Shown: piece after piece, positions 2,842-7,377 of the stretch
How the letters are laid out: each line of letters opens with the position of its first letter
Position numbering within the stretch: position 1 is the stretch's first letter
Assembly (NCBI GenBank): GCA_002348005.1
Contig: DDYQ01000145.1
Span: 1 to 7,377 of the forward strand
Length of the DNA stretch: 7,377 bases
Reading direction: 5' to 3'
Origin: Desulfobacteraceae bacterium UBA2230
Lineage (GTDB): Bacteria; Desulfobacterota; Desulfobacteria; Desulfobacterales; Desulfosarcinaceae
Program-made: the position numbers and the translations under genes
The notes under the pieces: model-generated
What the model saw: the letters and a program-made list of their open reading frames with translations, nothing else
What the model was told of the DNA's origin: nothing
Databases searched by the model: none

Positions 2842-3381
2842 TTACCAGCGGTCGTAGTGTGTGAAGTCGGCCGCCTCACGCCGGTTGGGTGCACCGCCGA
2901 CCTTGGCCGGCCGGCCCACCGGCACCATCGTGACCACTTCATACCCGGCCGGCAGACCGAGCGCCGCCCGGGCTTTGTCATGGTCGAACAGTCCCACGAT
3001 CACCGTTCCCAGTCCGAGGCTGTGGGCCGCCAGGCATAGATTCTGGTTGGCCAGCCCCAGGTCGTACATCATCCAGTCGCCGAATTTGGTCGTGACCTGT
3101 TCTTTATAGAATCCTGAACTCCCCATCCTGGCGCACAGCACCAGCACCACCGGCGCCTGCACGACGGAGTTGGTCGCCGGATTGCGCGACAGACAGGCTT
3201 GCAGCTGCGCCTTCACCTCGGCCGATTTGACCACCACCACTTCCCAGCATTGGGTATTGGCCCATGACGGCGCCCAGCGCACCGCCTCAAGAAGAAGATG
3301 CAACTCCTCATCGGTTACCGGACGATTTTCGAAGTGGCGAATACTGCGCCGCTGCCGGATGGCATCCATTAAATCGCTCAT
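2842..3381 (-). CDS. Nitroreductase-family FMN oxidoreductase
   Basis: A 179-residue single-domain protein of the nitroreductase fold. Family members bind FMN, usually as dimers, and use NAD(P)H to reduce nitro compounds, quinones or other substrates; the substrate here is unknown. Visible FMN-site features are RRSIRHF (11-17), PSWANTQCW (38-46) with N42 and Q44, the GLG segment of LGLGTVIVG (122-130) and the C-terminal VGRP (155-158). The length fits short family members (about 165-190 residues) and no ferredoxin domain is attached. The start at 3381 has an AGGAGA Shine-Dalgarno, and its ATG overlaps the TGA of the preceding small gene (ATGA), which indicates translational coupling. It is the last gene of a three-gene operon with the crotonase and the small membrane protein. 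This gives a hint, but no proof, of a role in acyl-CoA or aromatic metabolism. The C-terminal tail HYDRW, with few residues beyond the core, is complete. Confidence 0.93.
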   Translation of the reverse strand: MSDLMDAIRQRRSIRHFENRPVTDEELHLLLEAVRWAPSWANTQCWEVVVVKSAEVKAQLQACLSRNPATNSVVQAPVVLVLCARMGSSGFYKEQVTTKFGDWMMYDLGLANQNLCLAAHSLGLGTVIVGLFDHDKARAALGLPAGYEVVTMVPVGRPAKVGGAPNRREAADFTHYDRW

Positions 3382-3566
3382 CGGAAGGTTCTCCTCTCAG
3401 GATCGCGGCGTCTGGCCGCGTTTGTAGCAATCGCATGTTGTTCACCGCAATGGGGGCAGACGTAGGTTTCCGGTTTGGACGGCGGCGGCGCGTGCAGGGT
3501 CAGGACGCGCCACAGAATGAAAATGAATACCGCCGCAAAAAGCAATCCCAGCGTCACGTAAAGCAT
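3378..3566 (-). CDS. Small membrane-anchored CPxCG protein, unknown function
   Basis: A 62-residue protein that I do not recognise as a named family. Residues 2-23 form one hydrophobic helix (LYVTLGLLFAAVFIFILW), followed by a proline-rich linker and a single zinc-knuckle-like motif, YVCPHCGEQHA, with C37, C40 and H44 as possible metal ligands. A basic tail (RRR at 52-54, ERRTFR at the end) completes it. One knuckle gives only half of a zinc ribbon or rubredoxin site, so metal binding might need a dimer or a partner protein. The lack of arginine or lysine before the helix and the basic residues after it suggest that the knuckle domain faces the cytoplasm. The gene is believable despite its size: it has an AAGGAG Shine-Dalgarno at good distance, sits 12 nt after the crotonase stop, and overlaps the nitroreductase start by 4 nt. 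Confidence 0.8.
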   Translation of the reverse strand: MLYVTLGLLFAAVFIFILWRVLTLHAPPPSKPETYVCPHCGEQHAIATNAARRRDPERRTFR

Positions 3567-3578
3567 GGTCCGGCTCCT

Positions 3579-4295
3579 TCAGGCCACGACGTACCGGCCG
3601 CCTTCGATATAGGGGGTGTCGGCCTCATCCATAACCCGGATGATTTCCCGATTGCTTCGGGATTTGATTTCCGCGACGATGGCGCGCTGTTTGTTCACCT
3701 GGCGGGCAAACGCCAGGCTGACGGTCAGCAGTTCGTGCAGCGGGCAGGCCTTTTGCACGATGTGGTGCCGCTCGCAGCTCTCGCCGGTCAGGCGCACGCC
3801 GGTTAACTGCATTTCACGCAGCACATGGGATGGAATGGCGCTGCGCAGCAATGCAATCATGCCGGGCAGGAAAGGCACACCCACATCAACCTCGGGCAGA
3901 CAGAAAAAACCGCGGTCGGAGCGCATGAAACGGAAATCGAAGGCGCACGCCAGGATGGCCCCGCCACCGAAGGCATGTCCCGTGATCGCGGCGATGGTCA
4001 CCAGCGGGTAGGTCAGCAGACGCTTGAAGAGCCGGTTCAGCTGATGGAAAAACTGCTTGGCCGCATCCAGATTGTTTTGCTGCAGGAGCGGTTGAAGCCA
4101 ATCCAGATCGATCCCATTGGAAAAGATCTTATCATGGCTGCTGCGGACGAGCAGGGTGCGCGCCTGGCTGCCCTGTTCGATGTGATCCAGCACCTCGAGC
4201 AAAGCCTCCAGGAAAGGCGGATTGAATCGGTTGTCGCGGTCATTCAGCGTCACCAAGGCCACATGCTCCTGGATCGTGTACTCGACCAGGCCCAT
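3579..4295 (-). CDS. Crotonase-fold enoyl-CoA hydratase/isomerase family protein, isomerase-like active site
   Basis: A 238-residue cytoplasmic protein of the crotonase superfamily, acting on acyl-CoA thioesters. Oxyanion-hole segments are visible as FSNGIDL (58-64) and GHAFGGGAI (106-114). At the position of the first hydratase glutamate (E144 of rat enoyl-CoA hydratase, in the GGGCEL context) there is I114. The second glutamate is kept as E135 in CLPEVD. One retained glutamate and the GFFCLPEVDVG segment recall delta3,delta2-enoyl-CoA isomerases, including plant peroxisomal ones, rather than hydratases. This assignment is inference. An ATG six codons upstream (4313) is possible, but the ATG at 4295 has GAAGGAG 6 nt before it and the homology-like region begins just after, so I chose 4295. 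It is the first gene of an operon with the small CPxCG protein and the nitroreductase. Possible roles include unsaturated fatty-acid or aromatic acyl-CoA metabolism. Confidence 0.9.
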   Translation of the reverse strand: MGLVEYTIQEHVALVTLNDRDNRFNPPFLEALLEVLDHIEQGSQARTLLVRSSHDKIFSNGIDLDWLQPLLQQNNLDAAKQFFHQLNRLFKRLLTYPLVTIAAITGHAFGGGAILACAFDFRFMRSDRGFFCLPEVDVGVPFLPGMIALLRSAIPSHVLREMQLTGVRLTGESCERHHIVQKACPLHELLTVSLAFARQVNKQRAIVAEIKSRSNREIIRVMDEADTPYIEGGRYVVA

Positions 4296-4301
4296 TTCAG
4301 T

Positions 4302-4308
4302 CTCCTTC
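4302..4308 (-). promoter_or_regulatory. Ribosome binding site deciding the crotonase start
   Basis: GAAGGAG lies 6 nt before the ATG at 4295 and inside the coding region that an ATG at 4313 would give. The upstream ATG has no Shine-Dalgarno of its own, so translation very probably begins at 4295. Confidence 0.7.
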
Positions 4309-4314
4309 TTCATG

Positions 4315-4334
4315 TACGATTGGAATGGATCGTA
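4315..4334 (-). promoter_or_regulatory. Inverted repeat/possible operator before the crotonase operon
   Basis: Perfect 6-base arms TACGAT and ATCGTA are separated by 8 bases, 19 nt upstream of the chosen crotonase start. On the minus strand the first arm, TACGAT, resembles a -10 box (4 of 6 to TATAAT), though no good -35 was found at the right distance. A repressor of TetR or GntR type could bind such a site. This is inference from position and symmetry only. Confidence 0.35.
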
Positions 4335-4426
4335 TCGACGTGCGGAAGCTGACAGCCCCCTACCACACCGTCGCCGGAACCGTCAATTCACGCGAACCGC
4401 TCACCCCGTCAAAGCCCCTGAAACAG

Positions 4427-4458
4427 AAGGGCGCCATCCAGACAAGCATGACGCCCTT
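4427..4458 (-). terminator. Hairpin terminator behind the HesB-like gene
   Basis: On the minus strand an 11-base-pair stem (AAGGGCGTCAT / ATGGCGCCCTT, one T-G wobble) with a 10-base loop starts 22 nt after the HesB-like stop codon. The tail CTGTTTC is only moderately T-rich, so termination may be partial. It separates this gene from the crotonase operon. Confidence 0.55.
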
Positions 4459-4480
4459 GAATTACGCTTTAAACGGGTCC

Positions 4481-4804
4481 TCAGCAACCACAGGATCGCT
4501 TCTGATCGGTGCTGCAGGCGCAACCCGCTCCCGATCCAAATTGCATTCCCGAATCCAGTTTAAAGCCGTACATGTGGAAGTCGACCGAAATGGGTTGGGC
4601 GCGTTCCAGGAACTCCTTGTTGACGAGATACTTGAAACCGTCGATATCGAACTGGGTGTCGGCATCATTCGGCTCATCCAGAGCCATGGCCAGGCCGGGG
4701 CCGCCTCATCCGCCCTCATTTAGAAAGATACGGATCGGCCGGACCTCTTTGCCCTTGAAATACTGGGAGATTTGTTCAGTGGCCGCAGGTGTGACTGTGA
4801 GCAT
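4481..4804 (-). CDS. HesB/IscA-like selenoprotein (in-frame UGA read as selenocysteine)
   Basis: A 107-residue A-type iron-sulfur-carrier-like protein when the UGA at 4706-4708 is read as Sec33. The two halves are in the same frame and join as IRIFLNEGG-U-GGPGLAMALDEP, so the Sec sits exactly where IscA/HesB proteins have their first cluster-binding cysteine. The other ligands are near the C terminus: C95 and C97 in GAGCACS (the usual CxC pair), plus C105 and C107 in a terminal SCGC. Sequence after the UGA is clearly conserved (DIDGFKYLVNKEFL, SVDFHMYGFKLDSG), ruling out a true stop. A hairpin fitting the bacterial SECIS rules lies behind the UGA. The start at 4804 has a perfect AAGGAGG 6 nt upstream. 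HesB-like selenoproteins are an established bacterial family; their precise role (cluster binding or redox) is not settled. The final stop is also TGA. A one-base sequencing error (TGC to TGA) is the main alternative. Confidence 0.9.
4671..4708 (-). promoter_or_regulatory. Bacterial SECIS-like element with its UGA
   Basis: Behind the UGA (4706-4708), a perfect 5-bp stem GGCTC/GAGCC (4681-4685 and 4671-4675) closes the loop TGGAT. The loop begins 25 nt after the UGA and has G at its second position. Published bacterial SECIS rules ask for a loop about 16-37 nt downstream with a G among its first two bases. SelB with Sec-tRNA would bind here. A competing GC-rich pairing nearer the UGA (GCGGCC with GGCC and GC) is possible. 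Confidence 0.7.
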
Positions 4805-4910
4805 GCTATCCTCCTTGAATGGTAAGAATCCCGCGCTCGCGGGGTATCGCGGCGGAGCCCGCTTGAAAACCTGTTGGCCACAACGGGAGCCTGTCCGCTG
4901 ACGACGCGCA

Positions 4911-4939
4911 AAACTAACCATAATGCCGTAAAAAGTCAA
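4911..4939 (-). promoter_or_regulatory. Probable sigma-70-type promoter of the HesB-like gene
   Basis: TTGACT (4934-4939) and TAGTTT (4911-4916) on the minus strand are separated by 17 nt, in a locally AT-rich patch about 110 nt before the start codon. The -35 is near consensus, the -10 weak (3 of 6). Confidence 0.4.
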
Positions 4940-5020
4940 TCATTCAGCGCGCTCTGGTCGAACTGCGTGCGGGCTGCGGCAAACGTTGATCTGTTGGTCG
5001 GCTTTTTATCGGCTTCGCTC

Positions 5021-5040
5021 GATCTGAACCGGTTGGGATC
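5021..5040. repeat. Interrupted palindrome after the macrodomain gene
   Basis: GATC-TG-AACC/GGTT-GG-GATC: an 8-base perfect core palindrome AACCGGTT flanked symmetrically by GATC, starting 5 nt past the macrodomain stop. No T-run follows on the minus strand, so it is not a standard terminator. It may be a protein-binding site or chance. Confidence 0.3.
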
Positions 5041-5045
5041 AGCGC

Positions 5046-5570
5046 TTATTTCAAACCGGCCAGGTACCGTTTGTAGGTCGCATGGTCGCCGGCGGAGAAA
5101 AGGACGAAAATGACCTGGGCCGGAAAGTCGTTGGACGCCAGAAACTCGAGGCAGGTATCCACGGCAATCCGGCACGCCGCTTCGATGGGGTATCCGTAAA
5201 CACCGCAGCTGACCGCCGGGAACGCCACGCTTCCCAACTTTCGGCCGGCCGCCAGCTGGAGGCTGCGCAAATAGCAGGAACGCAACAGGCGGGCATCTTC
5301 GGGCCGGCCCCGATAAACCGGTCCGACGGTATGAATCACATGGCGCGCCGGCAGCCGGTAGCCACGGGTGAGGCGCGCCTCGCCTGTAGGGCATCCGCCC
5401 AGGGTGCGGCATTCGGCCAGCAGTTCGGGGCCCGCCGCGCGGTGAATGGCGCCGTCCACCCCCCCGCCGCCCAGCAGCGACCGGTTGGCGGCGTTTACAA
5501 TGGCATCCACCCGCATGCGGGTAATATCGCCCTGCTGCGCGGAGATTCTTTCCAAAACGGCGCTGTCCAT
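5046..5570 (-). CDS. MacroD-type macrodomain protein (O-acetyl-ADP-ribose / ADP-ribosyl hydrolase)
   Basis: A 174-residue stand-alone macrodomain, the usual length for bacterial YmdB-like proteins. Proteins of this type remove the acetyl group from O-acetyl-ADP-ribose, and many also cleave ADP-ribose from modified acidic residues. The ADP-ribose site is plain: GDIT (14-17), VDAIVNAANRSLLGGGGVDG (21-40) with N26, N29 and D39, then AIHRAAG (41-47), and the second phosphate loop SCGVYGYP (121-128). N29/N26 and D39 correspond to the catalytic Asn/Asp region of YmdB and MacroD. No additional domain or toxin-like partner is present. The start at 5570 has a strong GAGGAGG Shine-Dalgarno 5 nt away. 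It follows the FmdB-type gene by 21 nt and is probably co-transcribed with it; a functional link between the two is not obvious. The frame ends with TAA at 5046 and no clear terminator follows. Confidence 0.93.
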   Translation of the reverse strand: MDSAVLERISAQQGDITRMRVDAIVNAANRSLLGGGGVDGAIHRAAGPELLAECRTLGGCPTGEARLTRGYRLPARHVIHTVGPVYRGRPEDARLLRSCYLRSLQLAAGRKLGSVAFPAVSCGVYGYPIEAACRIAVDTCLEFLASNDFPAQVIFVLFSAGDHATYKRYLAGLK

Positions 5571-5591
5571 AAAAGCCTCCTCAGGGCCGAT

Positions 5592-6080
5592 TCACAAGTC
5601 GTAGAGGGTTTCATCGTGCCGGGGCGCGCTTCGCCCCGGTCCTCGCCCTCCTTTGCGGGTCGGCATCAGGAATGGATCTTCCTTTTCAAGGATGTCGCCC
5701 ATCTCGGCTTCAATCTGTTCGGGATTTTCTCCGCGCTCCATACGCTGCAGGGCCTCCTGCATTCCCGGTCCCAGTTGCAGTCCTGTCATGCCGGTCAGCT
5801 TGCGCATCAGATCGGCCGCCTGCTTGGGGTCATCCTCGTTGATGTGCTCCGCTTCTCCCGCCAGCATCTGCATGGCCTGCTCCATCTTGCTTTCATCAAC
5901 GGGCAGGTCGTCGGACAGATCGTTCTCTCTGGCGCGTCCGGTGACGGCGAAGGCCGACATCCGCCGCTCCAGCGTCCCTTCGCAGCGCGGGCAGGGCGGC
6001 CGCCGGGTGGTGTTGACCGTTTTGGAATAGAAGTTGAAGATGGTGTTGCAGTCATCGCAGAAAAATTCGTAGATGGGCAT
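5592..6080 (-). CDS. FmdB-family zinc-ribbon protein with extended helical C terminus
   Basis: A 162-residue protein beginning with the FmdB/CxxC_CxxC zinc-ribbon signature: MPIYEFFCDDCNTIF with C8/C11, and CPRC with C30/C33, a four-cysteine site expected to hold zinc. The family was named after a putative regulator of formylmethanofuran dehydrogenase, but its function in most bacteria is unknown. Typical members are about 60-110 residues. This one has a longer acidic, Met/Glu/Lys-rich segment (about 60-138) predicted by eye to be helical (DESKMEQAMQML, QAADLMRKL, GMQEALQRMERGENPEQIEAEM), then a basic glycine/arginine patch (TRKGGRGPGR, 141-150). The SAFAVTG segment after the ribbon (42-48) is typical of such proteins. 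The start at 6080 follows GAGG at 6 nt. It is the first gene of a probable operon with the macrodomain gene. Nucleic-acid or protein binding is plausible but inferred. Confidence 0.85.
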   Translation of the reverse strand: MPIYEFFCDDCNTIFNFYSKTVNTTRRPPCPRCEGTLERRMSAFAVTGRARENDLSDDLPVDESKMEQAMQMLAGEAEHINEDDPKQAADLMRKLTGMTGLQLGPGMQEALQRMERGENPEQIEAEMGDILEKEDPFLMPTRKGGRGPGRSAPRHDETLYDL

Positions 6081-6737: not shown

Positions 6738-7377
6738 CCCTGCGCGTACGCCTCGACAATGTGGCGCTCGTTCTGCACCGGCCGCATTTTTCGGGTAACA
6801 TCGGCTCGGCCGCGCGGGCGGCCTGGAACATGGGCATCGAACGCCTGCTGGTCGTGGCCCCCGAGAATTACGACCACGAGCGCGTGCTGCCCATGGCCAC
6901 GCATGCCGCCCGCCGGGTGGTGGATGGCATCCGGTTTTACGATGAACTGGCCGAGGCCCTTTCATCTTTCACCTACGTGGTGGGAACCACAGCCCGGCGC
7001 GGCGGGGAGCGACAGATCGTTTTGTCACCGGCCCAGATGGCGCAGGGCCTGATCGCCATCTCCCAGGACAATCAGGTGGCGATCCTTTTCGGCCCCGAGG
7101 ACCGTGGGCTGACCAACGAAGAGCTGCGGCTGTGCCACCAGCTCGTCACCATTCCCACCGCCGACTTCGCTTCTCTGAACCTGGCGCAGGCGGTGATGGT
7201 GCTGTGCTACGAGCTTTTCACCGCCGGCAGCCCGACGCCGCGGACCACTGTGCCGCGGCTGGCCACCCGTCATGAACTGGACGGCATGTACGCGCAACTC
7301 AAGGACGTGCTGGTGCGGATCAATTACATTCAGCCTGAAAACCCCGATTACTGGATGAACAAGCTGCGCCGCTTTTT
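6734..7377 (+). CDS. trmJ: TrmJ-type tRNA 2'-O-methyltransferase (SPOUT/TrmH family), 3' end cut off
   Basis: 214 residues of a SpoU/TrmH-family (SPOUT) enzyme. E. coli TrmJ methylates the ribose at tRNA position 32 using S-adenosylmethionine and is about 246 residues long, so roughly 30 residues should be missing beyond the window edge. Motif 1 is [17 protein letters not shown] (18-34), with the conserved N22 and R28. Motif 2 is [17 protein letters not shown] (115-131), with E122 and G125. Motif 3 is [22 protein letters not shown] (140-161), forming the trefoil-knot cofactor pocket. The C-terminal extension reading [24 protein letters not shown] is typical of TrmJ rather than TrmL or TrmH. 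The GTG start at 6734 overlaps the ndk TGA (GTGA), and its Shine-Dalgarno is weak, which suggests translational coupling. No internal ATG start leaves motif 1 intact. Substrate choice (Cm32/Um32) is by family only. Confidence 0.9.

Follow-up and report, generated by a model that had tools for sequence, protein, structure and literature searches.

The HesB-like selenoproteins, members of the HesB/IscA group that carry selenocysteine (Sec), are already catalogued. A 2006 survey of 25 families included them, with 11 selenoproteins and two changes from Sec to cysteine, and drew a remnant SECIS-like (selenocysteine insertion sequence) structure for a Cys form in Desulfitobacterium hafniense (PMC1794560). 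They rank sixth in a 2016 tabulation (86 organisms, 90 proteins; PMC5029168, Table 3), appear in a 2026 review (PMC13188914, Table 1), where their motif is given as UxGP, and include a Methanococcus maripaludis protein found by means of mutagenesis and 75Se labelling (PMC11097638). Here we describe a gene of this kind on the minus strand of a 7,377-nucleotide (nt) stretch of contig DDYQ01000145.1 of Desulfobacteraceae bacterium UBA2230 (the whole stretch is referred to below as the window). By comparison with its relatives, the gene, at 4804–4481, is very probably a selenocysteine-containing member of the NCBIfam family NF038090 (IscA_HesB_Se), with the UGA at codon 33 read as Sec; the comparison supports the family, the predicted fold, the exchange of TGA and Cys codons, a conserved SECIS element and the presence of Sec machinery in relatives. 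This makes it a new member of an already catalogued selenoprotein family, an ordinary and well-supported one. NF038090 is mentioned by number nowhere in the literature searched, and a text search of a paper on dual code expansion in marine Deltaproteobacteria (PMC8318568) found neither of the words HesB and IscA.

The gene encodes 107 amino acids followed by a TGA stop, and its translation reads MLTVTPAATEQISQYFKGKEVRPIRIFLNEGG-U-GGPGLAMALDEPNDADTQ...GCACSTDQKRSCGC, the sole interruption being an in-frame TGA at codon 33 (4708–4706). The frame, the coordinates, this TGA and its EGG-U-GGPGLA context were all found as claimed in a first-pass annotation made from the sequence alone, as was the Shine–Dalgarno sequence, AGGAGG at 4815–4810, 5 nt upstream of the ATG; the same hexamer occurs within 20 nt upstream of the start in 56 of 68 Sec rows among the relatives described below. 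When joined across the TGA, the product scores 106.7 bits against NF038090 (cut-off 85) over the whole profile (residues 1–97), and none of 14 control genomes has a match over that cut-off. The first-pass reading of a HesB/IscA selenoprotein of known family is supported both by this score and by the comparison of relatives. In alignment, residue 33 occupies the column of the first conserved cysteine of the PDB homologues 1nwb and 2d2a, and Sec or Cys in that column is what the family expects, to judge from its name.

No difference of substance was seen between the window protein and NF038090. Its four C-terminal cysteines (95, 97, 105 and 107), which the first-pass annotation had singled out for comparison with other members, are all present and form a CxC...CxC tail, a variation on the commoner family tail CxxC...C; most listed relatives have a CxxC-type start, whereas the window's four are shared by close database halves, among them P0005, P0011 and P0013. 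The HesB-like selenoproteins of the reviews correspond to TIGR01911 (HesB_rel_seleno), a related but separate subfamily model against which the protein scores 24.3 bits (cut-off 66.35); the motif tabulated for them is UxGP (PMC13188914), and the window has U-G-G-P. The homologue in Desulfatitalea alkaliphila M08but (L001) is 75% identical and has the same TGA and the same hairpin as the window, with the tail CSGC...CGC in place of CAC...CGC; its genome also carries a Cys-form paralogue. To judge by its relatives, the window gene would come from a Desulfatitalea-like bacterium.

The codon at the site of residue 33 was read in DNA from 90 relatives: the window itself, relatives from a contig search, loci from the order to which the D. 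alkaliphila genome belongs, and paralogues. In this set, defined by similarity to the window protein or to the family models, scored only in part on NF038090 and with near-copies kept, 75 relatives have TGA at the site, 15 have a Cys codon and none has TGG. The eleven contig-search relatives come from Desulfatitalea, Desulfosarcina, Desulfosarcinaceae and Desulfobacteraceae, or from bins with a looser placement (Deltaproteobacteria, Proteobacteria, Thermodesulfobacteriota); nine have TGA and two TGC (L010, L011). Close relatives with TGC were what the first-pass annotation had said would tell against it, and the Desulfatitalea and Desulfosarcinaceae relatives (L001–L003, L005–L007) all have TGA. 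The two with TGC are the more distant ones, and the genome of L011 also has a TGA copy (L096). In an order-wide search, 173 of 194 genomes gave a match and, among the matches listed, all but five have at least one in-frame TGA, its codon position having been checked in the fetched loci only. A quick tree (82 rows, 106 columns, 38 of 79 inner branches open) implies at least five changes between Sec and Cys, two of them forced by starred branches; it yields no direction of change, and the paired test of hairpin against Sec that it allows rests on two supported pairs only.

Downstream of the TGA lies a hairpin, GGCUC-UGGAU-GAGCC, that is a strong candidate for the SECIS element. The SECIS-like hairpin of the first-pass annotation is real, and can now be placed inside the gene, at 4685–4671. 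It has five base pairs (six with a U–G pair) and a 5-nt loop, UGGAU, whose second base is G; the spacing from UGA to loop is 25 nt, and the energy is −7.6 kcal/mol alone and −9.1 kcal/mol with short flanks. It thus satisfies all of the rules for bacterial SECIS elements quoted in the 2026 review: a loop of 3–9 nt, an upper stem of 4–16 bp, a G in the first two loop bases, a distance of 16–37 nt from the UGA and a minimum free energy of −7.5 kcal/mol or lower (PMC13188914).

Taken from the window sequence alone, the hairpin is weak evidence for a SECIS element. The fold of the 51-nt segment is unexceptional (z −1.08, with 31 of 200 shuffles folding at least as well), a helix of at least five pairs that obeys the rules on spacing, loop and G turns up somewhere in 10.5% of 20,000 synonymous redraws, and the lowest-energy fold of the segment lacks the hairpin in two relatives (L007, L008), a point against the Sec reading. 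The exact helix at the exact place arises in 1.8% of a second set of 20,000 redraws, and of the six Sec sequences folded, the other four (the window, L001, L005 and L009) have the hairpin in their lowest-energy fold. The evidence becomes strong because the hairpin is conserved in the Sec relatives and is not formed in the Cys relatives. All five pairs are kept in 68 of the 75 Sec relatives and at least four in 74 (four in L072, L078, L019, L076 and the second copies of L046 and L080; two in L081), whereas none of the 15 Cys relatives reaches four, three being the most. Most of GGCUC-UGGAU-GAGCC is supplied by codons +8 to +11, counted from the Sec codon, and in the first 68 Sec rows three of these four are all but frozen relative to the rest of the same genes: GCT makes up 66 of 67 Ala codons at +8 (20% elsewhere), CTG 67 of 68 Leu codons at +9 (34%) and GAG 67 of 68 Glu codons at +11 (39%). 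Codon +10 is not frozen (GAT in 60 of 68, against 59% elsewhere), and weaker bias is seen at nearby codons, such as GGC at +1 (49 of 63, against 43%) and AAA at +13 (28 of 31, against 55%). The binomial test applied to this bias ignores the kinship of the rows, and its p-values are not readable as probabilities.

The machinery for Sec incorporation was sought in ten genomes chosen for holding a relative of the window protein, and so not a random sample (the genome of L010 falls outside them), and in the 14 named control genomes. Matches to selB and selD exceed the cut-off in all ten, the best selD match in each having an in-frame TGA of its own, and matches to selA and tRNA-Sec do so in eight each; the best eight tRNA-Sec scores of the relatives are 72–77 bits, against a cut-off of 47. 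Several points count on the other side. In these ten genomes selA was not found in G007 and only as a fragment in G002, tRNA-Sec falls below the gathering score in G006 and G009, and the control genomes are not wholly without matches over cut-off (selB in two, selA in one, selD in two and tRNA-Sec in five of the 14). The tRNA-Sec cut-off is the least selective of the four. In the source organism itself, Sec would presumably be incorporated by equivalent machinery. One of the ten genomes also has a second selB-like gene (G004:C22:173696-174945; 286.5 bits, over cut-off), directly adjoined by a second tRNA-Sec-like gene (52.2 bits), with selD about 5.6 kb beyond the pair and a Cys-form HesB paralogue about 3.7 kb before it.

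Two other explanations of the TGA would deny that a selenoprotein is made at all. If it were a true stop, the locus would hold a broken or sequencing-damaged IscA gene, left as two non-functional halves. Automatic gene calling agrees with this, single halves making up 86 of 111 database matches, yet an identical TGA is found in 75 relatives, both halves are kept as protein, the hairpin downstream is frozen at synonymous sites and AGGAGG stands upstream in most Sec rows, which leaves a true stop very improbable. Alternatively, the organism might read TGA as tryptophan (genetic code 4), as the 13 database proteins with Trp at the site would reflect. Against this, the codon is TGA or Cys in every relative read as DNA, TGA also terminates the gene in 39 of 68 Sec rows, and selB and selD are present in all ten relatives' genomes; we give this explanation next to no credence, and the Trp entries are probably products of code 4 gene calling. 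Decoding of UGA-33 as Sec remains much the best account of the gene.

That ordinary gene calling would break the gene in two had been foreseen in the first-pass annotation, and the 111 database matches bear this out: 82 are C-terminal halves starting at an internal ATG (MALDE), and four are N-terminal halves. Since single halves account for 86 of the 111, the point holds across the family. In the remainder both sides are present, with Trp at the site in 13 and Cys in 12. The database search was limited to candidates between 0.55 and 1.75 times as long as the query, and N-terminal halves are under-counted because halves of fewer than about 59 residues could not be candidates. The nearest half (P0005) is 97% identical over 63% of the query, and occurs on contigs of up to 84 kb.

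The nature of the gene is well supported, whereas for the family a function can only be proposed. The predicted fold is that of IscA, and structure matches include cluster-bound IscA. Under the mechanism that we propose, UGA-33 would be decoded as Sec by SelB and tRNA-Sec, with the hairpin 25 nt downstream as guide; the protein would fold like IscA or SufA, with a flexible tail rich in cysteines and with Sec replacing the first conserved cysteine; and a cluster would be held or passed on by Sec 33 and cysteines of the tail, the selenolate making release easier or withstanding oxidation. We consider that the protein more probably than otherwise works as an A-type iron–sulphur carrier, or a redox-tuned version of one, and that it may well bind a cluster. 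The A-type carriers IscA, SufA and ErpA differ from it in having Cys at the site and a CGCG tail (the CXnCGCG motif; PMC5471300) in place of the longer cysteine-rich tail seen here.

A number of observations weigh against such a role. The protein falls below the cut-offs of all of the A-type carrier profiles (TIGR00049, 34.3 against 58.8 bits; IscA, 30.6 against 150.6; SufA, 29.2 against 136.2; ErpA, 18.1 against 117), and the case for a carrier is for that reason one of resemblance only. In the structure model, tail residues 90–104 have a predicted local distance difference test (pLDDT) score below 50 and the predicted template modelling (pTM) score is 0.60; Cys stood for Sec, so the geometry of the site is not given by the model. 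The account of the M. maripaludis protein cites an unpublished observation that a hesB-like disruption mutant is unimpaired in nitrogen fixation, and calls the function of the selenoprotein not clear (PMC11097638). The first-pass annotation had called residue 33 the first cluster-ligand cysteine position: that it falls in the first conserved Cys column stands, but the ligand role was an inference and may not hold, crystal work on E. coli IscA having taken the corresponding Cys35 as idle, in an account that gives 1X0G as the one fully resolved holo IscA (PMC5471300).

The protein might instead be a real selenoprotein that carries no cluster, using the IscA fold for selenol/thiol redox chemistry or for binding selenium or a metal. 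Redox functions are deemed likely for most uncharacterised prokaryotic selenoproteins in the 2026 review (PMC13188914), and the cysteine-rich tail and the missed IscA, SufA and TIGR00049 cut-offs would suit such a role. The presence of cluster-bound IscA among the fold matches argues the other way, as does the absence of any TIGR00049 match over cut-off from all ten relatives' genomes (8 of the 14 controls have one). So, too, do the neighbourhoods of three Cys-form paralogues, which hold iron–sulphur proteins: a formate-dehydrogenase-type gene lies two genes on from one (L091), another (L092) is followed by a gene for a small protein that combines 2Fe-2S and molybdopterin-binding domains, and the third (L088) by one for a double-cubane-cluster reductase, with a VhuD/FlpD-like subunit further off. 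The fourth examined (L093), near an OS_HP2-like (DUF1573) protein, gives no iron–sulphur sign. Together, the four neighbourhoods and the lack of TIGR00049 matches would fit an A-type carrier, and we regard a purely redox or metal-binding protein as a serious possibility that nonetheless falls short of being probable. The protein near L093 (L093:3893-4936) itself falls just short of the cut-off for the OS_HP2 (seleno)protein family (96.7 against 100 bits).

Several other features of the locus can be noted. The idea that the terminal TGA encodes a second Sec was rejected: the stops in the 68 Sec rows are TGA in 39, TAA in 25 and TAG in three (one row is cut by the end of the locus), and no conserved extension past the stop was seen by eye in the window and eleven loci printed beyond it. 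On the same strand, 3′ of the gene, lies a GC-rich hairpin (4458–4427; −20.3 kcal/mol), a possible terminator without a clear U run that the terminator scan did not report; it was rejected as the SECIS element, the in-gene hairpin being preferred. A scan of the window against Rfam gave nothing relevant (one sub-threshold mir-490 match at 7220–7132, 24.8 against 84 bits), a search of the window for tRNAs found none, and plasmid records gave no match to the protein.

The upstream neighbour, on the minus strand at 5570–5046, encodes a macrodomain (ADP-ribose) protein and the downstream neighbour, also on the minus strand (4313–3579), an enoyl-CoA hydratase/crotonase family protein. In loci with 1400 nt or more of flank, the macrodomain gene lies upstream in the same orientation in 19 of 33 and the crotonase gene downstream in the same orientation in 19 of 35, with an FmdB-type protein upstream, on either strand, in 23 of 33. 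Because the loci were chosen as relatives of the window, this conservation may reflect common descent. The order across window positions 2842–6080 (FmdB-type zinc ribbon, macrodomain, HesB-Se, crotonase, a 62-amino acid protein, nitroreductase) is partly conserved in relatives.

Sec and Cys forms commonly share a genome. All ten relatives' genomes have the TGA form of NF038090 over cut-off, and in seven (G001, G002, G003, G004, G006, G007, G010) a further, separate copy over cut-off has an open frame, its site codon being Cys in each of these genomes. In three further genomes a Cys-form and a Sec-form copy lie in tandem (L042 at 501 and 1015, L046 at 500 and 900, L080 at 127 and 501), the Sec copies making four or five of the five hairpin pairs and the Cys copies two. 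Weaker IscA-like matches occur in addition to NF038090 in G001, G002, G004 and G010, those below the cut-offs including G004:C46 and G010:C6. Three HesB-like matches with an in-frame TGA (G001:C45, G002:C437, G004:C48), below the cut-offs of NF038090, TIGR00049 and TIGR01911, possibly represent a second HesB-type selenoprotein.

The gene provides a clean further case of one cut in two by standard annotation, and the SECIS element pinned down here can be used to find and re-join other split genes. A more speculative reading, which we think rather unlikely, is that these bacteria rely mainly or wholly on NF038090 proteins as A-type carriers, with Sec and Cys isoforms kept side by side and perhaps switched with the supply of selenium or oxidant, the Sec isoform being an iron–sulphur carrier with a selenolate ligand; they may not be the only such carriers, since other IscA-like matches exist below the cut-offs. 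Were NF038090 proteins indeed the main A-type carriers, selenium supply would reach into iron–sulphur cluster delivery.
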